Shown one piece after another: positions 30,590 to 54,566 of a stretch of 64,000 bases of DNA. Every line of letters begins with the position of its first letter. Position 1 is the first letter of the stretch. The stretch covers positions 1,922,001 through 1,986,000 of the forward strand of contig NC_008541.1 in NCBI RefSeq assembly GCF_000196235.1. The letters are read 5' to 3'. The position numbers and the translations under genes were made by a program. A model generated the notes under the pieces. That model made no database searches and was not told the origin of the DNA. It saw only the letters and a program-made list of their open reading frames with translations. Origin of the DNA: Arthrobacter sp. FB24. Lineage in GTDB: Bacteria > Actinomycetota > Actinomycetes > Actinomycetales > Micrococcaceae.

Positions 30590-30601
30590 ATTGTTGACAA
30601 T
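30590..30601. promoter_or_regulatory. GntR-type operator O1 and ehuB promoter
   Basis: ATTGTTGACAAT. The inner TTGACA (30594-30599) is an excellent -35 box, followed after 17 bases by TAGTTT as -10, directed to the ehuB-type gene. Bound repressor would cover the -35. The site is also 114 bases upstream of ald on the other strand. Confidence 0.75.
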
Positions 30602-30694
30602 ACTACATGCTTATCTTAGTTTTGTGTTACATGGATCACAGGGACGCGATTCCTGCTTAGTGCCGGCGACGATGCCGGTCGAATGGAGTTCAAA

Positions 30695-31588
30695 ATGTCA
30701 AGTCACATTTCACGGCGGAACCTCCTGCGCGGCGCCGGTGCGGCAGCCTTGGGAATCTCGGTGGCAGGCTGGGTAACCAGCTGTTCCACCGTTCCCGTCG
30801 GCGGCCCTGCAACAGGGGCCACCACCAACCTGCTGGACACTGCGAAGGAGCAGGGCTTCATCCGGGTTGGCATCGCCAATGAGCCGCCGTACACCCAGGT
30901 CAGCCCGGACGGGAAAGTCACCGGTTGTGAGCCTGATGTCCTTCGCGCGGTCTGCAAGCGCCTGGGCATCGACGAGGTCCAGGGCATCATCACGCCGTAC
31001 GAGTCCATGATTCCGGGGCTCAATGCCAACCGCTGGGATGTCATTGCGGCGGGCCTCTTTATGAAGCAGTCGCGGTGTTCCCAGGTTCTCTACTCGGAGC
31101 CGGTTATCGTTTCCACCGAGTCCTTCGCCATGCCGAAGGGCAACCCGAAGGGCATCCTGACGGTCGCTGACATCATTGCCAACCCCGCGCTGCGCATTGC
31201 CGTCCTGCCGGGCGGGTTCGAGGAAGGGGTCCTGAAGGCGGCCAAAGTTCCCGCCAGCCAGCAGGTCAAGGTCAATGACGGCCGCAGCGGCCTTGAGGCG
31301 CTCACGGCAAACCGGGCGGACGCCTTCATGCTCCCCACCCTGTCCCTTAAGTCACTTGCAGAGAATGACGGCAGCTTCGATATCACAGCACCGATCAAAG
31401 ACGCTCCCCGCACGGGCTCGGGTGCTGCTTTCCGCAAGGCTGACACGTCCTTCCACGAGGCTTACAACAGGGAGCTTGCCGCGTTCAAGGCCACTCCTGA
31501 GTTTGGCGCGATCCTCACCAAGTGGGGCTTCGATCCGACCGTAGTCGAAGGGGCCACTGCGGAGGAACTATGCAAGACCGAGGGCTGA
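30695..31588 (+). CDS. ehuB: ectoine/hydroxyectoine ABC transporter substrate-binding protein (EhuB-like)
   Basis: A 297-residue solute-binding lipoprotein. Twin-arginine SRRNLLRG near residue 6 and a lipobox ending VTSC near residue 29 suggest Tat export and anchoring. The mature part has IANEPPYTQV, DGKVTGCEPDV, MIPGLNANRWDVIAAGLFMK with RC following, KGNPKG, and a final EELCKTEG. This motif series is that of EhuB rather than generic glutamine-binding proteins. GGAG precedes the ATG. It heads the ehuBCDA operon behind operator O1. Confidence 0.85.
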   Translation: MSSHISRRNLLRGAGAAALGISVAGWVTSCSTVPVGGPATGATTNLLDTAKEQGFIRVGIANEPPYTQVSPDGKVTGCEPDVLRAVCKRLGIDEVQGIITPYESMIPGLNANRWDVIAAGLFMKQSRCSQVLYSEPVIVSTESFAMPKGNPKGILTVADIIANPALRIAVLPGGFEEGVLKAAKVPASQQVKVNDGRSGLEALTANRADAFMLPTLSLKSLAENDGSFDITAPIKDAPRTGSGAAFRKADTSFHEAYNRELAAFKATPEFGAILTKWGFDPTVVEGATAEELCKTEG

Positions 31589-31616
31589 TCCGCGGGAAAC
31601 GGAAGGGGAGTACCGC

Positions 31617-32315
31617 GTGGACGCGATAATCGAATATGCACCCCTGCTGTGGCAGGGGCTGCTGACCACCCTGCTGGTGACTGTACTAGGCGGCGCGCTG
31701 TGCCTGGTAGTCGCATTTGCTGCGGGCTTGGCGCGACTCTCCAAGCATTGGATTCTGCGGTGGCCGGCCGGCGTCTTCATTGAGGTGTTCCGCGGAACGT
31801 CCCTGCTGGTGCAGATGTTCTGGCTGTTTTTCGCGCTGCCGTTCTTTGGGATCCAGCTCCATCCGCTGACGGCCGCAGTCCTGGCTCTCGGCCTCAACGA
31901 GGGTGCCTATGCCGCTGAAGTGGTCCGCGGCGCCATCGCCAGCCGGGCCAAGGGGCAGACGGAGGCCTGTATTGCCTTGGGCATGGAACCGGCCCTGAGG
32001 CTCCGCAGAATCATCATTCCGCAGTCCATCCCTGCCATGCTGCCGCCATTCGGCAATGTCATGGTGGACCTGTTGAAGAACACGTCGCTGGTCTCTCTGG
32101 TCACGGTGGCGGACCTGACCTTCAGTGCACAGATGATCCGCAGCACTACGGGGCAGACCACTGCCATCTTCATCACCATTCTGGTGATGTATTTCGCCCT
32201 GTCGTACTTGTTGACCCTGCTGACCAGCTGGTTGGAGAAGCGTTTCGCTCTTGACCGTAAGGCCCTGACCCTGCAGAAGAAGGAAAACACTCTGATGACG
32301 ATGGGTGCAGCATGA
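31617..32315 (+). CDS. ehuC: ectoine-type ABC transporter permease (EhuC-like)
   Basis: A 232-residue HisMQ-type permease with five hydrophobic segments. It carries the EAA loop (GQTEACIALGMEPALRLRRI, about residues 117-136) that docks on the ATPase. The GTG start has GGAAGGGGAG upstream. Its stop overlaps the next permease start (ATGA), so the two are translationally coupled. Paired with EhuD it would form the membrane channel. Confidence 0.87.
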   Translation: MDAIIEYAPLLWQGLLTTLLVTVLGGALCLVVAFAAGLARLSKHWILRWPAGVFIEVFRGTSLLVQMFWLFFALPFFGIQLHPLTAAVLALGLNEGAYAAEVVRGAIASRAKGQTEACIALGMEPALRLRRIIIPQSIPAMLPPFGNVMVDLLKNTSLVSLVTVADLTFSAQMIRSTTGQTTAIFITILVMYFALSYLLTLLTSWLEKRFALDRKALTLQKKENTLMTMGAA

Positions 32316-32968
32316 TTTGGGATAACAATTTTGCGATTTCCGTTCTCCCGGTCCTGTTGCAGGGCCTCTGGACCACGGTTCACATCACCGTGATGGGAAC
32401 GCTTTTGGCGGCCGGCTTGGGGCTTGTCTTCGCTGTTCTCCGAAGGCTTGCCATACCCGTGGTGTCACCGGTGGTTTCCTTCCTGGTGGTGTTTGTCCGC
32501 GGCACGCCGCTGCTGGTGCAGGCCTACGTTGCATTCTTTGTGCTGCCTGCCTACGGCGTCAGTTTCGATGCACTCACCACCGGCATTGTGGTGATCGGCA
32601 TCAATTACAGCGCTTACATGGCGGAGGTCTACCGCAGCGGCATCCAGGGTGTTCCTACCGGCCAATGGGAAGCGGCGACGGCGCTCAGCCTCCCCGGTTC
32701 CCGGACCTGGGGCCGCATCATCCTGCCACAGGCCATCCGGACCGTGGTCCCGATGCTCGGCAACTACCTCATCCAGATGTTCAAGGACTCGGCAGTCCTG
32801 TCCGCCATCACGGTGGTTGAACTCATGGCAACAGCCCAGGCCATCGGAAGCTCAAGCTTCCGTTACCTGGAACCCCTCACCCTCGCAGCGCTGCTGTTCC
32901 TGGCAGTCAGCTACCCGGCCTCCCGGCTGGTCAACAGATTGGAGCGGCGCTATGCGCCCCAGCACTGA
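32312..32968 (+). CDS. ehuD: ectoine-type ABC transporter permease (EhuD-like)
   Basis: A 218-residue second permease of the polar amino-acid/ectoine type, with five hydrophobic helices. The EAA loop is GQWEAATALSLPGSRTWGRI at about residues 117-136. Start and stop overlap both neighbours: four bases with ehuC and 17 bases with the ATPase gene. This indicates one tightly coupled transporter operon. Confidence 0.87.
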   Translation: MIWDNNFAISVLPVLLQGLWTTVHITVMGTLLAAGLGLVFAVLRRLAIPVVSPVVSFLVVFVRGTPLLVQAYVAFFVLPAYGVSFDALTTGIVVIGINYSAYMAEVYRSGIQGVPTGQWEAATALSLPGSRTWGRIILPQAIRTVVPMLGNYLIQMFKDSAVLSAITVVELMATAQAIGSSSFRYLEPLTLAALLFLAVSYPASRLVNRLERRYAPQH

Positions 32969-33767
32969 ACCCCAACCCCGGACCGCAGGCGTTGTCCTGC
33001 CTCCGGAACCGCTCATCCGGTTCGAGAACGTCAGCAAGAACTGGGGAACGAACCATGTTCTGAAGTCCCTGAATTTTGACGTTGCGCCGGGGGAGAAGGT
33101 GTCCATCATTGGGCCCTCCGGCTCCGGCAAGACCACCATCCTCCGCATCCTGATGACGCTGGAAACCCCTAGCGAAGGAAGGGTTACTGTGGACGGAGAT
33201 ACCCTGTGGGACGTCACCCGTGGCCAGAAAGTGCGCGAAACCAGGCAGCTGCGCGAGACCCGCAAGAAGATCGGCATGGTCTTCCAGCAGTTTAACCTGT
33301 TCCCGCACATGACCGCCTTGGAGAACATCATCGAGGCGCCCGTCCATGTGCTCGGCATGGGTAAGGCCGAGGCGCGCGAACGCGCGGCCGAACTGCTGAA
33401 CCTGGTGGGCCTGGGCAAACACATGAACCACACGCCGCCGCAGATGTCCGGCGGACAGCAGCAGCGCGTGGCCATTGCCCGGGCACTGGCCATGCGGCCT
33501 AAGGTGCTGCTGTTCGACGAACCCACCTCAGCGCTGGACCCCGAGCTCATCGGCGAAGTCCTGAACGTGATCCGCAACCTGGCCCACACCACGGACATGA
33601 CCATGCTGATGGTCACGCACGAGATGCGCTTCGCGGAAGAGATCTCGGACCGGGTGGTGATGTTCGACAACGGCGCTGCCGTGGAGAGCGGACCGCCGGC
33701 CCAGATCTTCAAGAACCCGCAGCAGGAGCGGACCCGGAGCTTCCTCCGGGCCGTCTTGCAGCACTGA
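32952..33767 (+). CDS. ehuA: ectoine-type ABC transporter ATP-binding protein (EhuA-like)
   Basis: A 271-residue ABC ATPase: Walker A GPSGSGKTT near residue 54, Q-loop MVFQQFNLFPHM, signature MSGGQQQR near residue 163, Walker B VLLFDEPTSALD, and switch histidine in MVTHEM. It belongs to the polar amino-acid family (GlnQ/EhuA). The ATG at 32952 overlaps the end of ehuD; a longer open frame upstream reads through ehuD in another frame and is not real. It ends one base before the convergent RidA gene, with no terminator between. Confidence 0.87.
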   Translation: MRPSTEPQPRTAGVVLPPEPLIRFENVSKNWGTNHVLKSLNFDVAPGEKVSIIGPSGSGKTTILRILMTLETPSEGRVTVDGDTLWDVTRGQKVRETRQLRETRKKIGMVFQQFNLFPHMTALENIIEAPVHVLGMGKAEARERAAELLNLVGLGKHMNHTPPQMSGGQQQRVAIARALAMRPKVLLFDEPTSALDPELIGEVLNVIRNLAHTTDMTMLMVTHEMRFAEEISDRVVMFDNGAAVESGPPAQIFKNPQQERTRSFLRAVLQH

Positions 33768-33768
33768 G

Positions 33769-34224
33769 CTAGTCGCTGCGGCGGCTCGCGATCAGCGAGA
33801 TCTCCACGGGTGCGCCGTCGGGCAGGCTGGAAACGCCGACGGCGGCGCGCACCGGCCGTCCCAGCTCGCCGAAGTAGGACACCAGTACCTCGGACGCGCC
33901 GTTCATCACCAGCGGATGGTCCGTGAAGTCGCTGCCGGCAGCGACGTAACCGGTCATGGAGACGATCTCGCCAATGCGGTCCAGCCCGCCGGCATGGGCC
34001 GCAAGGGACGCCAGACAGTTCAGAACTGCGGTGGCTGCAGCAGACTGTCCTTCCGCAACCGTCAGTTGCTCCCCGACCCGCCCGCGGCATTCGAGGTGTC
34101 CCTGTACGGCTGAGGTGTGGCCTGCTGTGTAGAGAACACCGGCTATTTCGCGCACCGGCACGTAGTTCCCGGCCGGAACCGGGGTGGGGGGAAGCGGTGT
34201 GATCGGTTTCTGATTGTCGTCCAT
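33769..34224 (-). CDS. RidA/YjgF-family protein
   Basis: About 151 residues with the Rid fold: LYTAGHTSAVQGHLECRGRVGEQL, then LDRIGEIVSMTGYVAAGSDF and RAAVGVSSLPDGAPVEISLIA. The arginine that binds the 2-iminoacid carboxylate is in RAAVGV. Rid proteins hydrolyse reactive enamine/imine intermediates from PLP enzymes, which fits a cluster with two transaminases. The ATG at 34224 follows operator O2 by 9 bases; a start at 34251 would place the operator inside the gene. Confidence 0.82.
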   Translation of the reverse strand: MDDNQKPITPLPPTPVPAGNYVPVREIAGVLYTAGHTSAVQGHLECRGRVGEQLTVAEGQSAAATAVLNCLASLAAHAGGLDRIGEIVSMTGYVAAGSDFTDHPLVMNGASEVLVSYFGELGRPVRAAVGVSSLPDGAPVEISLIASRRSD

Positions 34225-34232
34225 AATTAGCC

Positions 34233-34244
34233 ATTGTAGACAAT
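34233..34244. promoter_or_regulatory. GntR-type operator O2
   Basis: ATTGTAGACAAT, in the 44-base gap between the divergent RidA and EutA-like genes. It has one asymmetric centre base relative to the consensus and could control both. Confidence 0.7.
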
Positions 34245-34268
34245 TGAACAAATGTGAGAAAGTGATTC

Positions 34269-35036
34269 ATGACACTTGAACAAAACCCCGCCCTGGCGCC
34301 CGTTTCCGATCTGCCGGGTCCGCAGGCGTGGCGCGACATCGGCGTCGTCTGTCCCTTCGACATGGCCCTTGACCACGAGCTGTGGCGGTGGATGCCTGAC
34401 GGGGTGAACCTCATTTTCACCCGCACTCCCTACTACGACCAGCCGGTGGGCCTGGACATGGCAGAGGAGATCAGCGATCACGGCGAGATCCAGGACGCCG
34501 TCCGCAGCGTGATGGCCATCAGCCCGGCTGTGGTGGCGTACGCCTGCACGTCCGGCAGCTTTGTCCATGGCGTCCAGGGCGCGAGGAACCTTTCCAAAGC
34601 CATGGTGTCGGCAGGTGCTCCCGCGGCGGTGACCACCTCGGAAGGACTGCTCATGGCCCTGGATGCCCTGGGGGTGACCCGGGTTGCTGTGGCCACGCCG
34701 TATCTCGCCGAGCTGACCGACCGGTTGACGTCCTTCCTTGAGCAGGGCGGGAAGTCGGTGGTCTCGCACGAGGGGCTGGGCCTGGACCGGGATATCTGGA
34801 AGGTCCCTTATGCCACCACCTGTGAGCTCATCCGCCAGGCGGACCGTCCTGACGCGGAGGTAATCTTCGTCAGCTGCACCAACCTGCCCACATATGACCT
34901 GATTGCCCGAATGGAGCAGGAATTGGGGAAACCGGTAATCACGGCCAACCAGGTAACCGCGTGGGGCGCGCTGCGGCTGATGGGCCGCGAAGCCGTGGGG
35001 CCGCACCAGGCCCTGCTTCAGGCCACGAAAGGCTAG
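34269..35036 (+). CDS. Asp/Glu racemase-superfamily protein (EutA/maleate isomerase-like), two Cys
   Basis: A 255-residue protein of the Asp/Glu/hydantoin racemase superfamily, in the maleate isomerase/arylmalonate decarboxylase/EutA branch. The catalytic cysteines are Cys93 in ACTSGSF and Cys203 in VSCTNLPT, and TANQVTAW lies near residue 228. With both cysteines it could be an isomerase or racemase. EutA of ectoine operons belongs to this group, though its reaction is unsettled. GAGAAAG lies before the ATG, right after operator O2. Confidence 0.75.
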   Translation: MTLEQNPALAPVSDLPGPQAWRDIGVVCPFDMALDHELWRWMPDGVNLIFTRTPYYDQPVGLDMAEEISDHGEIQDAVRSVMAISPAVVAYACTSGSFVHGVQGARNLSKAMVSAGAPAAVTTSEGLLMALDALGVTRVAVATPYLAELTDRLTSFLEQGGKSVVSHEGLGLDRDIWKVPYATTCELIRQADRPDAEVIFVSCTNLPTYDLIARMEQELGKPVITANQVTAWGALRLMGREAVGPHQALLQATKG

Positions 35037-35060
35037 CTCAACCCGCGTTACCCCGCACAA

Positions 35061-35107: not shown

Positions 35108-35123
35108 CTGTTTCACGACAGGG

Positions 35124-35852
35124 TTAGCGGCGGAACAGGCTGCCCAGCTGGTCGGAGTGCACCGTACGGCCGGCGAGCTGCAGGCCGTACCAGGCGGTCA
35201 CCTGATTGGCCGTCAGGACGGTCTTTCCGAGGACCGACTCCAGCTCATTAAGCCAGCGGACAGTATGCAGGGCGGTATCCGGGATCAGGACAGCTTCGGC
35301 GTCCGGCGCGTTGGCGCTTCGGGCCAGTTCAACCACGCCGTCGTGGTCCAACTCGCCGGCGTCTTCGCCTGAAGCAATGTCGTGGGAGGCAAGATCGAGG
35401 ACCTGGATATCCTGGTGGCCAAGCAGCTCCACGAAATGGCGGGAGACGTCGTCGGGGTAGGTCGCCGATACAGACACCTTGGAGATACCCAGATGCCGCA
35501 GTGCAGCGGCGAAAGCCAGCGAGGTGGAGGACGTGGGGACATTAATGACGTCCTGGATCTCTCGCACCTGCTGGTGCGCGCCGTCCCAGCCGAAAACGAA
35601 ACTGCCGGACGTACACGCCCACATAACGGCGTCGGGGCTGTACTTCCGCACGATCTCACCGGCGCCCTCGAGCAGCCGCTCAGACTTGCCGAGGTCCAGC
35701 AATGCCTGAACCTCATGTGTGGTGATTTCGTCAGGTCCGCCTACCGAGGTGTGGACCACGGGCAGATGAATGTCCTCTCCCAGGATCGACTCCAGGTACG
35801 GGTATTCATCCTCGGCACTGTGGCCGGGGTAAAGCATTCCAACAGTTGTCAT
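35124..35852 (-). CDS. Asp/Glu racemase-superfamily protein (EutA-like), second Cys replaced
   Basis: A 242-residue paralogue of the protein at 34269, convergent with it. The first catalytic cysteine is kept (Cys80 in ACTSGSF), and TANQVTAW is conserved near residue 215. The second site reads LIPDTALHT, with Asp192 where the paralogue has Cys203. Two-cysteine racemisation is therefore unlikely; a one-cysteine decarboxylase-like or non-catalytic role is possible. The ATG at 35852 follows AGGAG. Operator O3 lies 75 bases upstream. Confidence 0.75.
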   Translation of the reverse strand: MTTVGMLYPGHSAEDEYPYLESILGEDIHLPVVHTSVGGPDEITTHEVQALLDLGKSERLLEGAGEIVRKYSPDAVMWACTSGSFVFGWDGAHQQVREIQDVINVPTSSTSLAFAAALRHLGISKVSVSATYPDDVSRHFVELLGHQDIQVLDLASHDIASGEDAGELDHDGVVELARSANAPDAEAVLIPDTALHTVRWLNELESVLGKTVLTANQVTAWYGLQLAGRTVHSDQLGSLFRR

Positions 35853-35926: not shown

Positions 35927-35938
35927 ATTGTCGACAAT
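35927..35938. promoter_or_regulatory. GntR-type operator O3
   Basis: ATTGTCGACAAT, perfectly palindromic and extended to GATTGTCGACAATC. On the minus strand TTGTCG can serve as -35, with TATTTC 17 bases later as -10 for the gene starting at 35852. Confidence 0.75.
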
Positions 35939-36026: not shown

Positions 36027-36038
36027 ATTGTCAACTAT
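36027..36038. promoter_or_regulatory. degenerate GntR-type operator O4 (autoregulation)
   Basis: ATTGTCAACTAT keeps 10 of 12 consensus bases and lies 87 bases before the GntR gene start, so the regulator may control itself with lower affinity. Confidence 0.5.
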
Positions 36039-36124: not shown

Positions 36125-36778
36125 ATGAAAAGGGGAGCCCTAGACCCGGTCGTACAGGAGTCCACTCCGGCCATTATCGCCCGCAAAATCCGCGACGCTA
36201 TTGCCCGCGGTGACTTCGCTCCGGGCGTCCAGCTCGGAGAAGCCGAACTGGCCAAAGAACTGGGCGTCAGCCGCGGCCCTCTGCGCGAGGCCATGCAGCG
36301 CCTCACCCAGGAAGGGTTGCTGGTCAGTCATCGGAACCGGGGCCTCTTTGTGGTCTCGATGGACGAGGACGACTTCCGGGACATCTATCTGGCCCGCTCC
36401 GCTGTTGAGGCTGCCGCCATCGGCCGCGTGATCAGCACCGACCCCCTGGGTAGCGCCGCCAAGCTGATGGAAACTGTGCGAGCCATGGAGAATGCGGCCG
36501 AGTCCCCGAACAGTGAGGCGATGACCGAAGCGGATATGAGCTTCCACGCCCTTCTGGTAGAGCTCGCCGGGAGTCCACGCCTGAAGAAAATGCACAACAC
36601 ACTTTTGACGGAGACGCAGATGTGCCTTAATGCCCTCAAGAGCACTTACGACACGGCCGATCGGCGTATTGCCGAGCATAAGGGCATCGCGGAGGCCATC
36701 TCCCGCGGTGACTCGGACCTCGCCGAGAAGCTCATGGCGGAGCACATGGATGACGCGCTGATGCGGCTGATCCCCTAA
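36125..36778 (+). CDS. GntR-family regulator, FadR subfamily (FCD domain)
   Basis: A 217-residue repressor. The winged helix is at about residues 15-80 (IRDAIARGDFAPGVQLGEAELAKELGVSRGPLREAMQRL, recognition helix SRGPLREAMQ). An all-helical FCD effector domain follows from about 90, with metal-type residues in DMSFHALLVELAGS and a histidine in RRIAEHKGIAEAI. AAGGA lies before the ATG. FadR-type proteins bind GT-N(0-1)-AC palindromes, which the ATTGTNNACAAT sites here satisfy. It is the only GntR gene in the 25-kb cluster, so it is the likely master repressor. The classical ectoine regulator EnuR is MocR-type, so this control is different. Confidence 0.9.
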   Translation: MKRGALDPVVQESTPAIIARKIRDAIARGDFAPGVQLGEAELAKELGVSRGPLREAMQRLTQEGLLVSHRNRGLFVVSMDEDDFRDIYLARSAVEAAAIGRVISTDPLGSAAKLMETVRAMENAAESPNSEAMTEADMSFHALLVELAGSPRLKKMHNTLLTETQMCLNALKSTYDTADRRIAEHKGIAEAISRGDSDLAEKLMAEHMDDALMRLIP

Positions 36779-36867: not shown

Positions 36868-36879
36868 ATTGTCAACAAT
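36868..36879. promoter_or_regulatory. GntR-type operator O5 and promoter
   Basis: ATTGTCAACAAT, extended to CTATTGTCAACAATAG (36866-36881). TTGTCA is a good -35 with TAGTGT 17 bases later as -10, directed to the transporter gene at 36934. Confidence 0.75.
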
Positions 36880-36933: not shown

Positions 36934-38325
36934 ATGTCTAACGCACCACATGGCGCCGGCTCCGGCGCGGAGTTCACGACTCCAGACGAAACGTCCCCCG
37001 CAGGCAAAAAAGTGCTCCACCGGGCCATCGCTGCCTCTGCTATGGGTAATGCCACTGAATGGTTCGATTACGGCGTTTATGCCGTAGCCGCCACGTACAT
37101 CACCGCCAACTTCTTCCCCGGCGAAGGCGCCATGGGAACAGTCTGGACGCTCGCCACCTTTGCCCTTTCCTTCCTCGTGCGGCCGCTGGGCGGGCTGTTC
37201 TGGGGTCCCCTGGGTGACAGGATCGGACGCAAGAGGGTCCTGGCGCTGACCATCATCCTGATGGCTGGCTCAACCTTCGCCATTGGCCTTCTCCCGACGC
37301 ATTCGCTGGCCGGCTGGCTGGCCCCGGCCCTGCTGGTCCTGCTGCGCATGATCCAGGGATTCTCAACCGGCGGGGAGTACGGCGGTGCGGCTACATTCAT
37401 GGCCGAATACGCACCGGACAAGAAGCGCGGCTTCTATGGCAGCTTCCTTGAGTTCGGCACGCTGGGCGGCTTCGCCCTCGGGTCCCTCGTGGTTCTGCTC
37501 TGCACCCTGCTCCTGGGTGAAGGCTCCATGACTGAATGGGGCTGGCGGCTTCCCTTCCTGATTGCCGGTCCGATGGGCATCATCGGCATGTACCTGCGTA
37601 ACAGGCTTGAAGACACCCCGGTCTTCCGCGAACTGGAGGCCAGCGGGGAGCTGGAACCAGCCACGAGCACCGCTCTGAGAGACCTGCTGAGGGATTACTG
37701 GCGCCCCATGCTGATCATGGCCGGCCTCGTCATTCCGCTAAATGTTGTCAACTACACCCTGCTTAGCTACATGCCTACGTACCTTGAGGGTTCGGTGGGT
37801 ATGGATGCCAACACGGTGCTGACTCTGATGTTCGTGGGGCAGATCGCCATGATGCTGATGATTCCGCTGGCTGGCGCCCGCTCCGACAAGATCGGACGCA
37901 AGCCAATGTGGTTCTTCTCCCTGATCGGCCTGTTTGTGATGGCCATCCCGATGTACATGATCATGGCTAACGGCTTCTGGTTTGCGATGCTCGGGTTCGC
38001 CGTTCTGGGTCTGCTGTATCTTCCGCAGCTGGCAACTATTTCCGCCACCTTCCCGGCCATGTTCCCCACCCAGGTCCGTTATGCCGGCTTTGCGATTACC
38101 TACAACGTCAGCACGGCGATCTTTGGCGGGACTGCACCGATGATGAACGAGCTTTTGGTGAATGCCACGGGCAATGTCCTGATGCCGGCATACTACATGA
38201 TGGGTGCCTGCCTGATCGGTTTGGTGGCCGTGTGGAAGATGCAGGAGACTGCCGGGGCTTCGCTTCGCAACATGAAGATCCCCGGAATCAAGAAGATGCC
38301 CGTTCCGCGCCGTCTGGAGAGGTAG
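36934..38325 (+). CDS. MFS transporter, metabolite:H+ symporter (ProP-like)
   Basis: A 463-residue permease with twelve helices. The MHS pattern is clear: GNATEWFDYGVYAVAA near residue 38, RPLGGLFWGPLGDRIGRKRV near residue 87, and GFSTGGEYGGAATFMAEYAP near residue 145. ProP and its relatives import compatible solutes such as proline betaine and ectoine, which fits this regulon. GAGG lies before the ATG, and operator O5 is 54 bases upstream. It offers a second uptake route beside the ABC transporter. Confidence 0.88.
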   Translation: MSNAPHGAGSGAEFTTPDETSPAGKKVLHRAIAASAMGNATEWFDYGVYAVAATYITANFFPGEGAMGTVWTLATFALSFLVRPLGGLFWGPLGDRIGRKRVLALTIILMAGSTFAIGLLPTHSLAGWLAPALLVLLRMIQGFSTGGEYGGAATFMAEYAPDKKRGFYGSFLEFGTLGGFALGSLVVLLCTLLLGEGSMTEWGWRLPFLIAGPMGIIGMYLRNRLEDTPVFRELEASGELEPATSTALRDLLRDYWRPMLIMAGLVIPLNVVNYTLLSYMPTYLEGSVGMDANTVLTLMFVGQIAMMLMIPLAGARSDKIGRKPMWFFSLIGLFVMAIPMYMIMANGFWFAMLGFAVLGLLYLPQLATISATFPAMFPTQVRYAGFAITYNVSTAIFGGTAPMMNELLVNATGNVLMPAYYMMGACLIGLVAVWKMQETAGASLRNMKIPGIKKMPVPRRLER

Positions 38326-39829: not shown

Positions 39830-39927
39830 TCTTTTCCTCCTACTGGTCACTACGTGTTTGCGTGTTAAGTGCGTGGAACCAGAATCGACGTTTTAACCCT
39901 CCCCCACTTTTCGCGCGTTTTACCCCC

Positions 39928-44500: not shown

Positions 44501-44625
44501 CTATCCGCCGCCACACCCGCCGAGGCCAGGTGTTCCAGGACGGCCGGTTGGCCGGCGTCCGGCGCCCCGGACCGGCGGCTGCCGCCCGTTGCCGGGCGCG
44601 CGGGGGGGTGAACGGCATCAATCAT
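41539..44625 (-). CDS. FAD-linked oxidase fused to Fe-S module (YdiJ/D-2-hydroxyglutarate dehydrogenase-like)
   Basis: A 1028-residue membrane-associated dehydrogenase in one chain. A PCMH-type FAD domain (about 60-240, with PLIGRGGGTSMAGNAMGPG) and FAD-oxidase C-terminal domain (about 270-540, with GEHGDGRARSELL) come first. A [4Fe-4S] module (CLSCKACSSDCPTG near 660) and a CCG-type domain (TTGCCGVAGNFG near 960) follow. This is the YdiJ layout, oxidising D-2-hydroxy acids and passing electrons to the respiratory chain. It lies 7 bases from the gabT-type gene and overlaps gabD. The divergent D-2-hydroxyacid reductase suggests a matching substrate. Confidence 0.88.
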   Translation of the reverse strand: MIDAVHPPARPATGGSRRSGAPDAGQPAVLEHLASAGVAADSSPRRLAEYSYDASNYRVPPLAVVFPRTVEDVVAVVAACRETATPLIGRGGGTSMAGNAMGPGVVLDFSRYMNTIHAIDETSGTVAVDPGVVLAVLSRDVEKATGNRFTFAPDPSSKNRATVGGSIGNDACGNHSVRYGRTSDHVAEIDVVTSDGAQLTATATGLRATNPEDKTAEARAVALSSSFKDLAHNHLSEFRLELERIQRQVSGYHLANLLPENGFNMARALTGSEGTCAIIVGARMKLVPKPASALLVCLGYADVVDAARDIMTILEFSPAAVEGIDAAIVDTMRFRRGDGSVTGLPEGKAWLYVDLDGDNPDQVRAEADRLLARLKENGRLVDGRTIPDLQERAALWRVREDGAGLSARLSTGGESWPGWEDSAVAPENLADYLSDFRELLDRHHLTGVMYGHFGAGCMHIRITYDLRTETGRAVFRAFTKEAAELVVRHGGSLSGEHGDGRARSELLPLMYSPRMLAAFATYRRTWDPAGILNPGSLTEPDPMDGNLALEGIPQRQWRTSFDLRPLGAGGGSTTHTDSPETSAGSGTDPWVHALQSCIGVGRCRTDSGGVMCPSYRATKDEKDSTRGRSRVLQDMVRGARTVEEGWKSEEVREALDLCLSCKACSSDCPTGVDMATYKSEFFSHYYEGKLRPMSHFSLGWLPRWLKITGRIAPLVNALMSTPLAKAASALGGLTTRRALPRFAGASEWRREVAAAGVRPVTRYDGGARPDADGVVLFVDTFTRGFRPEVAGAAARVLANSGSTTECSADACCGLTWISTGQLDTAKKLMGQAAVALDDGTDRPIVVVEPSCAAALRKDLPELVHTDQARRVAARVRSFASHIEELTKTGWKPTPAQPLPKKVVLQTHCHEYSVFGAGTQRSALGAVGVASVVDTTGCCGVAGNFGFEKEHFDVSMLVAEQSLAPALHQTEADSVVLTDGFSCAMQVKQLDDSRPGRHLAQLLDPGEQAAVMSQTSRQPLPSTQEKDPS

Positions 44626-45937: not shown

Positions 45938-45949
45938 ATTGTCAACAAT
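45938..45949. promoter_or_regulatory. GntR-type operator O6 (divergent)
   Basis: ATTGTCAACAAT, extended to GATTGTCAACAATC. It sits 28 bases before the transaminase start and 26 bases before the reductase start on the other strand. On the plus strand TTGTCA (45940-45945) and TAGAGT (45964-45969) form a promoter. Confidence 0.78.
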
Positions 45950-45974: not shown

Positions 45975-46973
45975 GTGGACACACTAAATGAAACGCCGGA
46001 CACGACGCGCCGGCCAAAGGTTGTCATTCTGACGACGGAGGGCGTTGCTCCTCCCCATAACCTCGATAACATCCGGCAGCAGGCCGATGTGGTGATGACA
46101 GATGCGGCCGGCCTGTCCGGGGCGCTTCCGGGCGCCGAGGTCATTTTCCTCTGGGACTTCTTCTCCACTGCACTGCGGGATGCTTGGCACCACGCCGATT
46201 CGCTTCGCTGGGTGCATGTTGCGGCTGCGGGCGTGGACTCCCTGCTCTTCGATGAACTGCGCGAGTCCGACGTTCTGGTCACCAACGCCCACGGTGCCTT
46301 CGACGCGTCCATCGCAGAGTTTGTGCTTGCCTCGATCCTCGCGCACGACAAGCAGCTGCACATCAGCAAGGACCTTCAGCAGCAGACGGTGTGGAAGCAC
46401 CGCGAGGTCCAGCGGACGGCCGGACAGAACGCCCTGGTGGTCGGCACCGGGGGCATCGGGCGGGCTACAGCCAGGCTCCTGAAAGCCGTGGGCCTGAATG
46501 TCCTCGGCGCCGGGCGAACCGTGCGCAGCCAGGATGCCGACTTCAACGAGGTGGTTTCCAGCGCAGACTTGGCCGCCCACGCCGGCTGGGCGGACCACAT
46601 GGTGATGATCGCCCCTTTGACCGAGGACACGCGCAGCATTCTCAGCGCCGAGGTGTTGCAGGCGATGAAGCCATCCGCGCACGTCGTGAATGTCGGCCGG
46701 GGCGCCCTCGTTGACGAAGACGCTCTGGTGGAGGCTCTCCGGAACGGTGACATCGCGGCAGCCTCGCTGGATGTCTTCCATGTTGAACCGCTGCCGGCCG
46801 ACCATCCGTTCTGGGGCATGGACAACGTCCACATTTCCGCCCACATGTCCGGCGATGTCGTTGGCTGGCGCGAGACGCTTGCCAACCAATTCGAAAAGAA
46901 CCTGGGCCTCTGGCTGCACAGCAGGCCCCTGGTCAACCGGGTGGACAAGAAACTGGGCTACGTCACGAAGTAG
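45975..46973 (+). CDS. D-2-hydroxyacid dehydrogenase
   Basis: A 332-residue NAD(P)-dependent enzyme reducing 2-oxo acids to D-2-hydroxy acids, or the reverse. The cofactor fold VVGTGGIGRATARLLKAVG is near residue 160. The catalytic set is Arg in VNVGRGALVDEDAL, Glu in DVFHVEPLP and His in VHISAHMSGD. The GTG at 45975 lies only about six bases after the -10 box TAGAGT, so the message may be leaderless. It is divergent from the transaminase operon under operator O6. Confidence 0.9.
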   Translation: MDTLNETPDTTRRPKVVILTTEGVAPPHNLDNIRQQADVVMTDAAGLSGALPGAEVIFLWDFFSTALRDAWHHADSLRWVHVAAAGVDSLLFDELRESDVLVTNAHGAFDASIAEFVLASILAHDKQLHISKDLQQQTVWKHREVQRTAGQNALVVGTGGIGRATARLLKAVGLNVLGAGRTVRSQDADFNEVVSSADLAAHAGWADHMVMIAPLTEDTRSILSAEVLQAMKPSAHVVNVGRGALVDEDALVEALRNGDIAAASLDVFHVEPLPADHPFWGMDNVHISAHMSGDVVGWRETLANQFEKNLGLWLHSRPLVNRVDKKLGYVTK

Positions 46974-47087: not shown

Positions 47088-49109
<2,022 letters not shown>

Positions 49110-49134
49110 GGTTGTCCTTTCCAACATGAAGTGG

Positions 49135-50046
49135 TTACCAGCCGCGCTCGGCGAGGCGGTGCGGCTGGGGGATTTCGTCGACGTTGATGCCGACCATGGC
49201 TTCGCCCAGGCCGCGGGAGGCCTTGGCGATGACGTCGGGGTCATCGAGGAAGGTGGTGGCCTTTACGACGGCGGCGGCACGCTGGGCGGGGTTGCCGGAC
49301 TTGAAGATACCGGAACCGACGAACACGCCGTCGGCGCCGAGCTGCATCATCATCGCGGCGTCGGCCGGGGTGGCGATGCCGCCGGCGGTGAACAGGACCA
49401 CCGGGAGCTTGCCGGCGGCAGCAACTTCCTTGACCAGTTCGTACGGGGCCTGCAGTTCCTTGGCCGCGACGTAGAGCTCGTCCTCGGGCAGGGCGGCGAG
49501 CTTGGCGATCTCGGAACGGATCTGGCGCATGTGGCCGGTGGCGTTGGAGACGTCGCCGGTGCCGGCTTCGCCCTTGGAGCGGATCATGGCCGCGCCCTCG
49601 TTGATGCGGCGCAGCGCCTCGCCGAGGTTGGTGGCGCCACAGACGAAGGGAACCTTGAAGTTCCACTTGTCGATGTGGTTGACGTAGTCGGCCGGGGTCA
49701 GGACCTCGGACTCGTCGATGTAGTCCACGCCGAGGGACTGCAGGACCTGGGCTTCGACGAAGTGGCCGATCCGGGCCTTGGCCATGACCGGCACGGACAC
49801 GGCATCAATGATCTGGTCGATCATGTCCGGATCGGACATGCGGGACACGCCGCCCTGGGCACGGATATCGGCCGGAACACGTTCCAGCGCCATCACGGCC
49901 ACGGCCCCGGCGTCTTCGGCGATGCGGGCCTGCTCGACGTTGACGACGTCCATAATGACGCCGCCCTTGAGCATCTCGGCCATGCCACGCTTGACGCGGC
50001 TGCTGCCCGTGACGCTGTTGGATGCTACTTTTTCGTTTTGGCTCAT
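49135..50046 (-). CDS. pdxS: pyridoxal 5'-phosphate synthase subunit PdxS
   Basis: A 303-residue (beta/alpha)8 PLP synthase. Characteristic segments are [19 protein letters not shown] near residue 18, the lysine in [26 protein letters not shown] and [14 protein letters not shown]. It makes PLP from ribose 5-phosphate, glyceraldehyde 3-phosphate and ammonia, the last normally delivered by PdxT. No PdxT is visible here. Operator O7 is about 31 bases upstream, which ties PLP supply to this regulon and its two transaminases. Confidence 0.95.
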
Positions 50047-50077
50047 ACCGGGCCTCTTTACCGCTGGATCGATTACT

Positions 50078-50089
50078 ATTGTCGACAAT
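50078..50089. promoter_or_regulatory. GntR-type operator O7
   Basis: ATTGTCGACAAT, extended to TATTGTCGACAATA. It lies 31 bases upstream of pdxS and 58 bases from the next copy O8, which serves the divergent DUF3830 gene. Confidence 0.78.
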
Positions 50090-50147: not shown

Positions 50148-50159
50148 ATTGTTGACAAT
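50148..50159. promoter_or_regulatory. GntR-type operator O8 and promoter
   Basis: ATTGTTGACAAT, with a half-site ATTGTCGG at 50135. TTGACA (50152-50157) followed by TAGCCT after 17 bases forms a promoter toward the DUF3830 gene. Confidence 0.75.
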
Positions 50160-50245
50160 CTTGCTCTGTCCACATAGCCTGAGGTCAATCCGAAAGCAGC
50201 GTGCACTTCAAGGTGCACCTCAACTCCAGGAAGTTAGGCAGAAAC

Positions 50246-50755
50246 ATGGCCCGGTACATCAACATCACCCTTGAGAAGCGGGGAGTCACCTGCAAGGCGC
50301 TTCTCCTCGACGACGTCGCGCCACGCACGAGCAAAGCGGTCTGGGACGCCCTGCCGCAGAGTAGCCAGGTGTTCCACGGCAAGTACGCCCGGAACGAGAT
50401 CTACAACCTGGTTCCGGCCTTCGCTCCGAAGGAGCCCGGCGCCGAGAACACCACGGTCACCCCGATCCCCGGCGACGTTTGCTACTTCACATTCACGTCC
50501 AACGATCTGAAGACGCCCTCGCATGGCTACGAGGCGGATTCGGGCACTGATGAGGTCCAGACCATCGTTGACCTGGCTGTCTTCTACGGCCGCAACAACC
50601 TGCTGCTCAACGGCGACACAGGCTGGGTTCCCGGAAACGTGTTTGCCACCATCGTTGAAGGCCTGGACGAGATGGCGGCGGCCTGCCAGGACATCTGGAT
50701 GGGCGGCGCGCGCGATGAGACGCTGACCTTCTCCCGCGCTGAGGACACTGCGTAA
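50246..50755 (+). CDS. DUF3830-family protein
   Basis: A 169-residue cyclophilin-like-fold protein of DUF3830. Typical segments are TSKAVWDALPQSSQVFHGKY near residue 30 and AVFYGRNNLLLNGDTGWVPGN, then VFATIVEGLDEMA. No enzymatic function is established for the family. It has its own operator and promoter (O8) and no co-transcribed partner. I infer a dedicated role in the pathway, perhaps ring or small-amide binding or hydrolysis. Confidence 0.8.
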   Translation: MARYINITLEKRGVTCKALLLDDVAPRTSKAVWDALPQSSQVFHGKYARNEIYNLVPAFAPKEPGAENTTVTPIPGDVCYFTFTSNDLKTPSHGYEADSGTDEVQTIVDLAVFYGRNNLLLNGDTGWVPGNVFATIVEGLDEMAAACQDIWMGGARDETLTFSRAEDTA

Positions 50756-50857: not shown

Positions 50858-52093
50858 TCAGTTAGCGCTGTGCCGCAGGCACATGAGGGCGTAGGCGCGG
50901 GCCGCCGCCACTAGCTCTGCGATACTCACCGATTCGTTGACCTGATGGGCCTGGTCGTTGAGTCCGCCTGGGCCCATTACGATGGCGGGGACGCCGAGGT
51001 CGCGGGCAATAAAGCCACCGTCGCAGGCAGCCGTCCAGCCGGTGACATCGCTGCTCACGCCGGCGTCGGCCAGTGCGGCGACCGAGTTGGTCACCAGCGG
51101 GTGGTCCTCAGGGGTGCGGAAGCCCGGCATCTCCATGGTGACCGCTGCCTCCACCGAGATGCCGTCCGTATCAATGCAGGCTTCGCGGATCTGCGTGCGG
51201 AGCCGGTCCAGGATCAGCTGGGCGTCGTCATCGGGCATGAGCCGGCGGTCCAGGGAAATGGTGCACTCGGCAGCGACCATGGATGTTCCGGTTCCGCCCC
51301 GGATGAGGCCGATGTTCCAGCTTCCGGCGCCCAGCAGGGCGTCCTGGTCTGCCTGCAGCTTTGCGTGGTCCGCACGGACCAGTTCCAGGATTTTCGCGGC
51401 GGCGTCGATGGCGTTCCGGCCGTCGGCGGGACGGCCCGAGTGGGCCGATTTGCCGGTGACTTTCAGCTCGATGTAGCTGTCGCCGCGGCACCCGATCACC
51501 GTTTCGAGGTCGGTGGGCTCGGCCACCACGCACCCGGAGTAGGAAAAGGCCGGATCCGCCAACGCGGCGGGGGTGTAGGCCCGAATGCCAATGCCGAGGT
51601 CCTCCTCGTCCACCGTGCAGGCCAGCGCCGCGTTGCCGGGCAGTTCCGCCCCGGCATCCTTGAGGGCTTTCAGGGCAATAAGGACTGCTGCCAGTCCGCC
51701 CTTCATGTCCGTGGAACCGCGGCCGAAGAGCCTGCCGTCCTGTATGTATGGCTCAAACGGCGGAAGCTCCCAGCCGGTCCCTGCGGGCACCACATCGGAG
51801 TGACCCAGGAACAGCAGCCCCGGATGCGCTCCGCCGGGCAGGACGGCCGTGAAGTTCGGCCGTCCCGGCGTTACCGTTTGGGTTGACACTTCAAGGCCTG
51901 CATCCAGGCTGAAGCTTTTCAAGACCTCCACCGTTGCCTCCTCGGTGCCGCCGGGGTTTTCGCCGGCGGCGGCCACCAGGGCGGTGGTCAGCGCGACAAG
52001 GTCGTCTTCGCTGATCAGGTCAAGGACCTGCTGTTCCAAGGCCTTCTTGGCAGGACCCCGCTGGGCCTTCTGCTCAGGAGCGGCGGTTTTCAA
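50858..52093 (-). CDS. M20-family deacylase/peptidase (ArgE/DapE-like)
   Basis: A 411-residue zinc hydrolase. First metal motif LFLGHSDVVPAGT near residue 98, bridging aspartate in GSTDMKGGLAA near residue 131, catalytic glutamate pair in CTVDEEDLG near residue 167, and a lid domain with GKSAHSGRP. ArgE/DapE-type enzymes remove acetyl or succinyl groups from amino acids. The TTG start overlaps the transaminase stop (TTGA). It could replace DoeB/EutE by deacylating N-acetyl-diaminobutyrate, which would release acetate for Acs. Confidence 0.9.
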   Translation of the reverse strand: MKTAAPEQKAQRGPAKKALEQQVLDLISEDDLVALTTALVAAAGENPGGTEEATVEVLKSFSLDAGLEVSTQTVTPGRPNFTAVLPGGAHPGLLFLGHSDVVPAGTGWELPPFEPYIQDGRLFGRGSTDMKGGLAAVLIALKALKDAGAELPGNAALACTVDEEDLGIGIRAYTPAALADPAFSYSGCVVAEPTDLETVIGCRGDSYIELKVTGKSAHSGRPADGRNAIDAAAKILELVRADHAKLQADQDALLGAGSWNIGLIRGGTGTSMVAAECTISLDRRLMPDDDAQLILDRLRTQIREACIDTDGISVEAAVTMEMPGFRTPEDHPLVTNSVAALADAGVSSDVTGWTAACDGGFIARDLGVPAIVMGPGGLNDQAHQVNESVSIAELVAAARAYALMCLRHSAN

Positions 52094-53343
52094 GCGCTGG
52101 CTCCGTCTTTCAGGGCCTGCAATTCACGGTCCATGGCTCGGCGGAGCCGGATGATGCCTTCCTCCGCCCGTTCGGGTGTGGTGGAGGCGAAGCAGAGCCT
52201 CAGGGCGTCGCCGAACTTTCCGCTGGCGGACAGGGCCGGCCCCGGAATAAAGGCTACGCCTTCGGCCAGCGCCGTCTCGAATAGCTTATTGGTCGAGATC
52301 TGTGCGTCCTCGCCCTGGAGGGTGAGCCAGAGGAAGAAACCGCCTTCGGGGTCGGTGGTGGCCACCCTGCTGCCGAGGTTGCGGCGCAGGCTTTCCTGCA
52401 TGGCGTCTTTCCGCCGCTTGTACTCTGTGCGCAAGCCTGCAAGGTGAGTGTCCAGGCCGCCGCGGCGGATGAACTCGGCCACGATGTGCTGGGCTGGAAC
52501 GTTGGCGCAGGTATCCATGGCCTGCTTGGCGTTGATGACCAGCTGCCGCAGGGACGGATCGGTATCCACCCAGCCGACGCGCAGGCCAGGAGCCAGGATC
52601 TTGGAGAACGTCCGGACGGAGAACAGCAGGGGATCCCCGGGGCTCAGTGCCTGCAGTGACGGCAGGTCCTCGCCCTCGAAACGCAGCAGCCCGTACGGGT
52701 CGTCGTCGATGATAACGCAGTTCCACTCGTGCGCGAGTTCCAGCAGCTGGTGGCGGCGGGGGAGCGAGAGGGTGGTGCCGGATGGGTTTTGGAAGTTCGG
52801 GATGGTGTAGATGGCCTTGGGCTTCCGGCCCGCGGCAGCCACCAGGTCTGGGAGGGCCTCGACGATGAGGCCGTTCTCATCGGTGGGTGCCTCGAGCAGT
52901 TCGGCGCCGTAGCTCAGGGCGGTGGCGCTGCCGTTGGTGTAAGTGGGGCTTTCCACGATCACCAGATCGCCGGGATTGATGAAGATCTTGCAGGCCAGAT
53001 CCAGTCCCTGCATGCCGCCCGCAGTGATGGTGACGCGTTCCTCGGCGGTGGGGTCCGATGTTCCGGCAAGGTACTCGACGAGTGCCTTCAGCAGCACCGG
53101 CTCGCCCTCGGTAGCGCCGTAGGTCATGGAGCTGTGGTCGATGACCTGATCCGCGATATCCCGGAATTCGGCCAACGGCACGGCCTCGTCCGCGGGTGAA
53201 CCCATGGCGAAACGGACAATGTCATGCGTCTGCGCTGCCAGCAGCGACGTGCTGGAGTCAATGACCGAACCGACGAGGTCGGCTGCGCGGTTGGCCAAAG
53301 GCAGGGCGGTGCGGGATCGGGTGGCAATGTGGTCAACAGTCAT
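52090..53343 (-). CDS. class I PLP aminotransferase (2-aminoadipate/MocR-type domain)
   Basis: A 417-residue fold-type I transaminase without a DNA-binding domain. Motifs are YGATEGEPVLLKALVEYL, the YTNG-SAT region with IPNFQNPSGTTLSL near residue 185, DDPYGLLRFEG, and the PLP lysine in VRTFSKILAPGLRVGW near residue 250. It is the catalytic half of the MocR class and resembles LysN-type enzymes. It is the second gene of an operon with the M24 and M20 proteins; gaps are three bases and a four-base overlap. Confidence 0.88.
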   Translation of the reverse strand: MTVDHIATRSRTALPLANRAADLVGSVIDSSTSLLAAQTHDIVRFAMGSPADEAVPLAEFRDIADQVIDHSSMTYGATEGEPVLLKALVEYLAGTSDPTAEERVTITAGGMQGLDLACKIFINPGDLVIVESPTYTNGSATALSYGAELLEAPTDENGLIVEALPDLVAAAGRKPKAIYTIPNFQNPSGTTLSLPRRHQLLELAHEWNCVIIDDDPYGLLRFEGEDLPSLQALSPGDPLLFSVRTFSKILAPGLRVGWVDTDPSLRQLVINAKQAMDTCANVPAQHIVAEFIRRGGLDTHLAGLRTEYKRRKDAMQESLRRNLGSRVATTDPEGGFFLWLTLQGEDAQISTNKLFETALAEGVAFIPGPALSASGKFGDALRLCFASTTPERAEEGIIRLRRAMDRELQALKDGASA

Positions 53344-53346
53344 GGC

Positions 53347-54528
53347 CTAGCCGCCTTTCTGGATGAGTTCGCGGGGGAAGCTGGTGAAGGTCTCGACGCC
53401 GTCGGCGGTGACGCGGATCGATTCGGAGAGTTCGTAACCGTAGTTGTCCATCCACATCCCGCCGATCACGTGGAAGGTCATGTTCTCCGCCAGGATGGAT
53501 TCGTCCTCGGAGCGGATGGAGATGGTTCGCTCGCCCCAGTCGGGCGGGTAGCCTACTCCGATCGAGTAACCGATGCGGGACGGCTTTTCCAGGCCGTATT
53601 TGGCCAGCGTCCAGTTCCAGGCCCTGGCCAGTTCCCGGACAGGAACGCCGGGCTGCACCTCGGTCAGCACGGCGTTCAGGCCGTCGGCGACGGCGTCGGC
53701 CAGTTTTGCCAGATGGTCCGGCTTCTTGCCCAGGACCAGGGTGCGGGCCAGAGGCGTGTGATAGCGCTGGTGGGCGCCGGCCAGTTCAATGACGACGGCC
53801 TGGCCAGCCTCGAAACGGTCCTCGCTCCAGGTTAGATGGGGGGTATCGGCGGCCTCGCCGGTGGGCAGCATCGGCACGATGGCGGGATAGTCACCGCCGA
53901 TCCCGTTCGCCCCCTTGATCTGGGCCTGGCTGATGGCCGCGGCGGCGTCGCACTGGCGGACCCCGACGTCGATGGTCTCGACGGCGGCCTGCATGGCCCC
54001 CATGCAGACTTGGGCTGCGCCGCGCATCAGCTGCACCTCAGCGGGAGACTTGATCGAGCGCACCCAGTTCACCAGCTCGAAGCTGTCCACCAGGGCCCAT
54101 TCGGGAATGGCATTGACCAGGGAGCGGTAGGCCTTCGGGGAGAAGAAGTGCGAGTCCATTTCCAGGCCCACGCACCCCTTGGCCGCCGGAGCAATCAGGT
54201 AGCGTTCGCGGAGGGCGAAGGCCACCCAGTCGAAGGGGTGCACGTGCGGCCGGTGGACATACTGCTCCGGGTACCCGATGATGCATTCCTGCGGAAGCCA
54301 GGTGGTGCGGAAGGCACCCCCCGCGTCCATGGCCCGGGTGAAGAGGAGCATGGGTCCGCTGGCCGGTACGAAGACCAGCTGCGGGGTGTAAAAGGACCAC
54401 GCGTTGTAGCCCGTCAGGTAGTAAATATTGGCTGGATCGGTAACCAGCAGGGCGGACAGGCCCTGCTTTTCCATCCGAACCCGTGCGCCGGCAAGGCGTG
54501 CCGCGTACTCCTCTTCGCTGAACAGCAA
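53347..54528 (-). CDS. M24 creatinase-fold hydrolase (ectoine hydrolase EutD/DoeA-like)
   Basis: A 393-residue pita-bread-fold protein. The N-terminal half has VTDPANIYYLTGYNAWSFY near residue 31. The catalytic half has GIGGDYPAIVPMLPTGE near residue 200, VIELAGAHQRYHTPLAR near residue 238, GYPPDWGERT and NMTFHVIGGMW. Metal ligands of true aminopeptidases are replaced, as in creatinase, so a metal-free hydrolase is expected. The motif series matches EutD/DoeA, which opens the ectoine ring to N-acetyl-diaminobutyrate. The TTG start follows GGAGGTGTCC. It heads an operon with operator O9 27 bases upstream. Confidence 0.82.
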   Translation of the reverse strand: MLFSEEEYAARLAGARVRMEKQGLSALLVTDPANIYYLTGYNAWSFYTPQLVFVPASGPMLLFTRAMDAGGAFRTTWLPQECIIGYPEQYVHRPHVHPFDWVAFALRERYLIAPAAKGCVGLEMDSHFFSPKAYRSLVNAIPEWALVDSFELVNWVRSIKSPAEVQLMRGAAQVCMGAMQAAVETIDVGVRQCDAAAAISQAQIKGANGIGGDYPAIVPMLPTGEAADTPHLTWSEDRFEAGQAVVIELAGAHQRYHTPLARTLVLGKKPDHLAKLADAVADGLNAVLTEVQPGVPVRELARAWNWTLAKYGLEKPSRIGYSIGVGYPPDWGERTISIRSEDESILAENMTFHVIGGMWMDNYGYELSESIRVTADGVETFTSFPRELIQKGG

Positions 54529-54554
54529 AGGACACCTCCAGAAAGTTTTGGTAG

Positions 54555-54566
54555 ATTGTTTACAAT
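54555..54566. promoter_or_regulatory. GntR-type operator O9
   Basis: ATTGTTTACAAT within the 20-base palindrome GTAGATTGTTTACAATCTAC (54551-54570). It sits right before the M24-transaminase-M20 operon. IS256 remnant sequence begins about 25 bases beyond it. Confidence 0.75.

Follow-up and report, generated by a model that had tools for sequence, protein, structure and literature searches.

Genes and palindromic sites at the locus

The 64,000-nt stretch of the Arthrobacter sp. FB24 genome considered here (NC_008541.1; hereafter the window, whose positions serve as coordinates) carries a cluster of 21 genes that family scans delimit from an alanine dehydrogenase gene (ald) through a gene for a DoeA-like protein of the M24 family. 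One gene of the cluster encodes a GntR regulator with an FCD domain (36125..36778, + strand; alternative start at 36044), and the gaps between genes hold copies of the palindrome ATTGTNNACAAT. For this locus we computed the sites, their conservation, their association with the GntR protein, the gene families and, for some units, the overlap of sites with promoters. We consider it likely from these comparisons that the cluster is a substrate-inducible regulon for the uptake and degradation of ectoine, and perhaps also of 5-hydroxyectoine, under this single FCD-type GntR repressor.

The palindrome occurs in eight exact copies and one degenerate copy, numbered here O1 to O9 and all read on the + strand. 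O1 (ATTGTTGACAAT, 30590..30601) separates ald (29358..30476, − strand; above the TIGR00518 cut-off) from ehuB and the other genes of an ectoine/hydroxyectoine ABC transporter (EhuB, EhuC, EhuD and EhuA; 30683..33767, + strand; all four above NCBIfam equivalog cut-offs). O2 (ATTGTAGACAAT, 34233..34244) lies between a RidA/YjgF-family gene (33769..34224, −; above the Pfam cut-off) and the gene for EutA-like protein 1, of the Amdase/Asp-Glu racemase family (34269..35036, +). The gap between the gene for EutA-like protein 2 (35124..35852, −) and gntR holds O3 (ATTGTCGACAAT, 35927..35938), and the degenerate copy O4 (ATTGTCAACTAT, 36027..36038), with one mismatch and weak taken alone, also stands upstream of gntR. 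O5 (ATTGTCAACAAT, 36868..36879) precedes the gene for a ProP-like major facilitator superfamily carrier (36934..38325, +; under the ProP cut-off). O6, with the same sequence as O5 (45938..45949), is flanked by genes for a class III aminotransferase (44633..45910, −) and a D-2-hydroxyacid dehydrogenase-family protein (HADH; 45975..46973, +; under cut-off). O7 (ATTGTCGACAAT, 50078..50089) is found before pdxS, for a subunit of pyridoxal phosphate (PLP) synthase (49135..50052, −; above the TIGR00343 cut-off), and O8 (ATTGTTGACAAT, 50148..50159) before a DUF3830 gene (50201..50755, +; Pfam assignment). Finally, O9 (ATTGTTTACAAT, 54555..54566) heads an operon for the M24 protein (53347..54528, −), a class I/II aminotransferase (52090..53343, −) and an M20 deacylase of the ArgE/DapE family (50858..52093, −; above the TIGR01910 cut-off). 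O1 (before ehuB), O2, O3, O5, O6, O8 and O9 are kept in relatives. The remaining genes are those for acetyl-CoA synthetase (Acs; 47088..49127, −; above the TIGR02188 cut-off), a FAD/4Fe-4S protein resembling D-2-hydroxyacid dehydrogenases (41539..44625, −; under cut-off), an enzyme of the succinate-semialdehyde dehydrogenase (SSADH) type (40049..41542, −; 596 bits, below the cut-off of 646) and an amidase (38414..39850, −; above the cut-off of the PRK06169 model).

Non-coding DNA makes up 6.4% of the 25.2-kb span and contains all eight exact copies. No exact copy appeared in 100 dinucleotide shuffles of the window, and an order-1 model of the intergenic DNA of the cluster predicts 0.0025 matches, as compared with the eight present; a chance origin of the sites is thus rejected. 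The initial annotation of this DNA had placed the eight exact copies and the degenerate one at these positions, in gaps between genes, and had proposed a scan of the whole genome; its placements are borne out, and the scan (5.07 Mb) finds exact copies at only nine places, eight of them in the cluster, against one place for a reversed-motif control. A motif common throughout the genome is rejected on these counts. When one mismatch is allowed, the genome offers 35 places and the control 16, and because the control reaches this level, the mismatched copies outside the cluster are mostly background. The sole exact copy outside the cluster (L009, 1501-1512) falls at codons 3-6, within a reading frame judged CorA-like by eye. 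Within the window, ATTGCTGACAAT at 29097-29108 has one mismatch, lies 3' of ald rather than ahead of a start codon, and is probably background.

Two further features were seen at the ends of the cluster. An 18-G run at 29340-29357, the only run of at least nine G in the window, sits immediately 3' of the ald stop codon and is possibly a slippage tract or an assembly artefact. Upstream of O9, similarity to relatives stops at 54596; positions 54597-55323 resemble by eye the remnant of an IS256/Mutator-type transposase gene, followed by an IS110-like frame at 55360-56493. In a relative (G064), an additional operator and a further copy of the class III aminotransferase gene occupy this place.

The regulator and the palindrome across genomes

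The GntR protein contains the domains PF00392 and PF07729 (FCD), both above cut-offs. Its closest NCBIfam model, TIGR03338 (PhnR of Burkholderia), gives 125.9 bits, yet this is far under the cut-off of 271.5, and identity with PhnR is rejected on this score; no phosphonate-specific gene occurs among the cluster genes scanned. The EhuR model matches in the DNA-binding part only (25 bits against a cut-off of 480), and identity with the MocR-type regulator EnuR/EhuR is rejected, because an FCD domain is present instead of a PLP-binding aminotransferase domain. Residues D137, H141, H185 and H207, presumably the metal/ligand site of the FCD domain, are identical in all ten proteins aligned (five orthologues and five paralogues), which also have an SRGPxREAxQRL region in common. 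Operators of the FadR subfamily are described as palindromes with TKGT/ACMA boxes whose GT and AC are 2-3 nt apart (PMC4494728). The sites of the cluster, of the form ATTGT-NN-ACAAT, fit this rule in both the boxes and the gap.

Occurrence of the palindrome was compared in two sets of genomes. The first set comprises 121 congeneric genomes, grouped by GntR homologue: 11 genomes have an orthologue (identity of 48% or more), 26 have only homologues of 33-40% identity, and 84 have no homologue at E≤1e-30. Mean counts of exact sites in these groups are 6.91, 4.69 and 0.61, respectively, whereas the reversed-motif control gives 0.91, 0.92 and 0.67. At least three exact sites are present in all 11 orthologue-bearing genomes, in 21 of the 26 genomes with homologues only, and in three of the 84 genomes without a homologue. 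Mann-Whitney values for the site counts are 3e-9 and 3e-12, which overstate independence because the genomes are related.

The second set consists of the best 80 of 508 GntR-encoding loci from species-level genomes. These loci derive from Arthrobacter, Pseudarthrobacter, Kocuria, Tersicoccus, Cryobacterium, Gordonia, Williamsia, Nonomuraea, Amycolatopsis, Kitasatospora, Mobilicoccus and Georgenia, as well as from metagenome bins that include Dactylosporangium and Dietzia. Together they amount to 1.50 Mb and contain 167 exact sites, as opposed to none for the reversed motif, with at least one site in 76 of the 80. Removal of the seven loci shared with the first set leaves 133 sites in 73 loci, 69 of which have at least one. 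Two of the four siteless loci (L094 and L148, but not L087 and L153) each carry one site with a single mismatch. No exact site falls inside any match to the 21 genes.

Counts of the individual genes among the 80 loci, which are limited by flank length, are highest for the SSADH-type enzyme (63), followed by the class I/II aminotransferase (53), the M24, M20 and FAD/4Fe-4S proteins (51 each), EutA-like protein 2 (46), the amidase (43), the ProP-like carrier (42), DUF3830 (39), EutA-like protein 1 (35), the class III aminotransferase (31), HADH (27), EhuB (17), RidA (13), Acs (8), Ald (7) and PdxS (2). DUF3830 is thus a recurrent member of these clusters. The family has one uncharacterised structure, 3kop, which is the nearest to the FB24 protein, and a search of the open-access literature found no publication on it.

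The same genes keep their upstream sites in relatives despite rearrangement of the blocks in which they lie. In one relative (G002), about 84 kb separate the two blocks that carry sites and genes, and in two others (G111 and G100) the blocks are on separate contigs. The initial annotation had recognized from the sites that a GntR regulon is present, which agrees with our results, and had described it as dispersed, with the amidase as the one unit set apart; the ectoine role had escaped it. Dispersal applies to some relatives only, as the cluster is contiguous in FB24. The amidase gene is no exception either, for it lies on the same strand downstream of the genes for the class III aminotransferase, the FAD/4Fe-4S protein and the SSADH-type enzyme (the last across a 198-bp gap), and sites stand directly upstream of it in many relatives.

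Several observations weigh against the regulon reading. The G057 regulator, 48% identical to that of FB24, has no exact site within the 10 kb examined around its gene. Three of eight exact sites in G101 and three of nine in G007 are on other contigs, and the off-cluster stretches that hold five of these six (L060, L063, L064 and L073) contain no cluster genes apart from one weak EhuA match (36%). Such sites might mark extra members of the regulon or might have arisen by chance. Nonetheless, the proposed link of GntR to the palindrome is supported by the specificity of the motif within the genome, by its co-occurrence with the regulator among genomes and by the retention of sites through rearrangement. 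The palindrome is therefore well supported as the predicted operator of this FCD-type GntR, as the initial annotation had suggested.

Clusters of a second kind share the palindrome. GntR homologues of 36-40% identity in five congeners (G066, G112, G025, G042 and G098) lie in clusters whose class III aminotransferase (74-77%) and SSADH (69-71%) resemble the FB24 enzymes and which also have amino-acid ABC genes. The same palindrome is present in the stretches examined from these paralogue clusters (L066, L067, L068, L069, L070 and L072), where no match to the M24, M20 or DUF3830 proteins was found; G112 has 12 exact sites. The simplest reading would be one operator code with differing ligands across GntR paralogues, in which case cross-talk between the paralogous regulators is possible.

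Predicted ectoine pathway and mode of control

All four transporter subunits pass the equivalog level, with scores and cut-offs of 268.8/190.9, 265/196.95, 257/205.2 and 379.3/345.4 bits. Residues of EhuB that we take to contact ectoine are Glu21, Phe24, Phe80 and Arg85; in an alignment to 2q88, the closest structure (224 bits; 60 bits for the next), three are kept and Phe24 is replaced by Tyr, which lends weak support to ectoine binding. The 2q88 structure is that of Sinorhizobium meliloti EhuB (PMC5924519). For the M24 protein, the closest solved structure is DoeA at 351 bits, with the runner-up at 83 bits. Glu248 and Pro259 of this protein match the DoeA chain at positions occupied in the prolidase 1pv9 by two Asp, presumably metal ligands, and the Glu and Pro pair is kept in 61 of 61 aligned M24 matches, some loci being counted twice.

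A mechanism of the following kind would account for the gene content, although binding, repression, inducer, substrate and every enzyme step are inferred from sequence. When no substrate is present, the GntR protein would occupy operators (GATTGTYRACAATC) overlapping core promoters, in many cases the −35 hexamer itself, and would block transcription from the intergenic regions in which the eight exact sites lie, including the one upstream of gntR. Ectoine would be imported by EhuBCDA, perhaps also by the ProP-like carrier. The DoeA-like M24 enzyme, a candidate ectoine hydrolase of the DoeA/EutD type, would open the ring to give N-acetyl-diaminobutyrate, and the M20 deacylase, a candidate replacement for EutE/DoeB, would release diaminobutyrate and acetate, the latter to be activated by Acs. 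The class III aminotransferase, whose nearest solved structures are 4-aminobutyrate aminotransferases, and the SSADH-type enzyme are candidates for the DoeD and DoeC roles and could lead on to aspartate, with Ald and PdxS supporting pyruvate and PLP supply. A hydroxyectoine branch that employs the amidase, DUF3830, the EutA-like pair and the 2-hydroxyacid enzymes is a guess. The likely inducer would be an early intermediate bound at the conserved Asp and His residues of the FCD domain. EnuR of Ruegeria pomeroyi is described as responding to N-alpha-acetyl-diaminobutyrate and diaminobutyrate (PMC5924519, PMC8739950), and by analogy our best guess is that the inducer resembles these ligands.

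The assignment of ectoine as substrate also faces contrary evidence. The M24 protein scores 414.4 bits with the DoeA model TIGR02993, below the cut-off of 613, and is called DoeA-like for this reason. The two EutA-like proteins (112.5 and 88.4 bits) are far under the TIGR02990 cut-off of 318. Neither TIGR02994, the model for the deacetylase EutE/DoeB, nor an above-cut-off match to EutB (TIGR02991) is found in any of the 11 genomes scanned; all 11 have EutB homologues, and none of the matches listed lies inside the cluster. EhuB, moreover, is present in just 17 of the 80 loci within the flanks examined. The canonical EutD-EutE pathway is rejected, since EutE is absent from all 11 genomes. Synthesis of ectoine by FB24 itself is likewise rejected, as its genome (G000) has no match to ectoine synthase; one of the 11 genomes (G110) has one.

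It could be that the GntR regulon is real and serves chiefly for a different cyclic or N-acylated amino acid, with the Ehu- and DoeA-like proteins being paralogues of shifted specificity. This would agree with the scores of the M24 and EutA-like proteins under curated cut-offs, with the missing EutE and EutB, with the Ehu genes not being in the examined flanks of many relatives, and with the presence of an amidase, DUF3830, a EutA-like pair and 2-hydroxyacid enzymes, all outside the known core pathway. However, all four Ehu proteins exceed equivalog cut-offs, the M24 protein is far closer to DoeA than to other solved structures and shares its unusual residues, and Acs, Ald, the aminotransferase and the SSADH-type enzyme suit the products of ectoine. 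We regard a different substrate as unlikely, and ectoine as the better assignment.

The arrangement of sites relative to promoters bears on the mode of control. A consensus over 289 unique oriented contexts, those from close relatives not being independent, extends the site to G-ATTGTYRACAAT-C. TG-centred sites include TTGACA, and a TAnnnT box follows 17 or 18 bp downstream in 41 of 103 contexts (27 + 14; next-best offset, 8; mean at offsets 30-50, 0.05). CA-centred sites include TTGTCA, with the box at these distances in 24 of 92 contexts (15 + 9), a weaker signal (next-best offsets, 8 and 8; mean, 0.95). In the window, such −35 overlap is seen for four units: EhuB (O1, TTGACA, with TAGTTT 17 bp on), DUF3830 (O8, TTGACA, TAGCCT 17 bp on), ProP (O5, TTGTCA, TAGTGT 17 bp on) and HADH (O6, TTGTCA, TAGAGT 18 bp on toward the dehydrogenase gene). 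EutA-like protein 2 has TATGCT at offset 19. Median distances from site to start codon are 24-29 bp in five of 14 gene classes (EutA-like protein 1, class III aminotransferase, HADH, PdxS and M24). A consensus promoter scan of 30400-37000 found one promoter, with 1.4 expected. Since sites overlap −35 elements and lie near start codons, repression by promoter occlusion is favoured, although the units of Ald, EutA-like protein 1, RidA, GntR, the class III aminotransferase, PdxS and M24 have no −35 overlap and speak against it as a general rule.

These latter units would be accommodated if GntR were mainly an activator or its sites had mixed roles, and E. coli FadR is described as both activator and repressor. 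The spacing of the −35 hexamer from a −10-like box in both classes of contexts, and the short distances to start codons, argue for occlusion instead, and we judge activation to be improbable. That a different DNA-binding protein recognizes the palindrome, with GntR a bystander of the cluster, is very improbable: co-occurrence alone cannot tell the two apart, because the catabolic genes are found along with both GntR and the sites, and three genomes without a GntR homologue do have at least three sites, but the paralogue clusters, whose gene content differs in part, have in common only a GntR of this clade, the motif and some metabolic genes, and the motif matches the FadR-subfamily consensus (PMC4494728).

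Comparison with known regulons

The cluster offers a concrete soil-actinobacterial case of a probable ectoine-use regulon, with its putative regulator, operators and gene list. It would give a metabolic setting to uncharacterised families, namely DUF3830, the EutA-like proteins and an amidase under shared control. A wider proposal, somewhat less likely than not, is that a widespread actinobacterial ectoine/hydroxyectoine regulon evolved apart from EnuR systems. It would use an FCD-GntR operator that often doubles as a −35 element and a separate route with an M20 deacylase for EutE. In the hydroxylated branch, EutBC would be replaced by a conserved set of proteins made up of two EutA-like proteins, DUF3830, the amidase and a pair of 2-hydroxyacid oxidoreductases. 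Paralogous regulators would act through this operator on clusters for the catabolism of other amino acids. The paralogue data suggest in this regard a single operator code across a clade of FCD-GntR proteins with differing ligand domains. No published ectoine regulon under an FCD-type GntR came up in a search of the open-access literature.

The FB24 regulator resembles those of described FadR-subfamily GntR regulons in its GntR DNA-binding and FCD domains and in its TKGT/ACMA palindrome; the available text of that account mentions neither ectoine nor Arthrobacter (PMC4494728). Putative ectoine clusters predicted in Bacillota, Actinomycetota and Archaea, and called provisional by their authors, were reported in 2026 (PMC13188858). 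As presented in that text, the Gram-positive clusters share with FB24 the presence of eutD homologues without eutE, and, in class of function, the Bacillota amidohydrolase gene abgB corresponds to the M20 enzyme; unlike FB24, with its FCD-GntR, the Bacillota clusters carry PucR. A GntR, Arthrobacter and five other actinobacterial genera were looked for in the text portion of the report and are not mentioned there, its figure with actinobacterial clusters being outside this comparison.

The closest counterparts are the EnuR (EutR/EhuR) clusters of Proteobacteria such as S. meliloti and R. pomeroyi. A 2018 review restricts ectoine consumers to Proteobacteria and describes EnuR (of the MocR type), AsnC and NtrYX as ectoine regulators (PMC5924519). 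The class I/II aminotransferase at 52090-53343 resembles the aminotransferase half of MocR regulators, with the DNA-binding half absent; its matches to the MocR-type models PdxR and EhuR start no earlier than profile positions 91 and 117. This protein is encoded inside an ectoine-type operon, and the regulator of the proteobacterial counterpart is a MocR protein. Common to the FB24 and EnuR clusters, on the review's description, are an Ehu-type transporter, a hydrolase of the EutD/DoeA type, EutA-like proteins, an aminotransferase, an SSADH-type enzyme and a regulator of the GntR superfamily (PMC5924519). In contrast to EnuR, which has a PLP-binding aminotransferase domain, the FB24 regulator has an FCD domain, and its cluster lacks EutE and any EutB above cut-off. 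The FB24 genes are also arranged in several units, each with an operator, whereas the EnuR system is expressed as one 13.5-kb transcript, and the FB24 cluster adds an amidase, DUF3830, Acs, Ald, PdxS and 2-hydroxyacid enzymes to the shared set.

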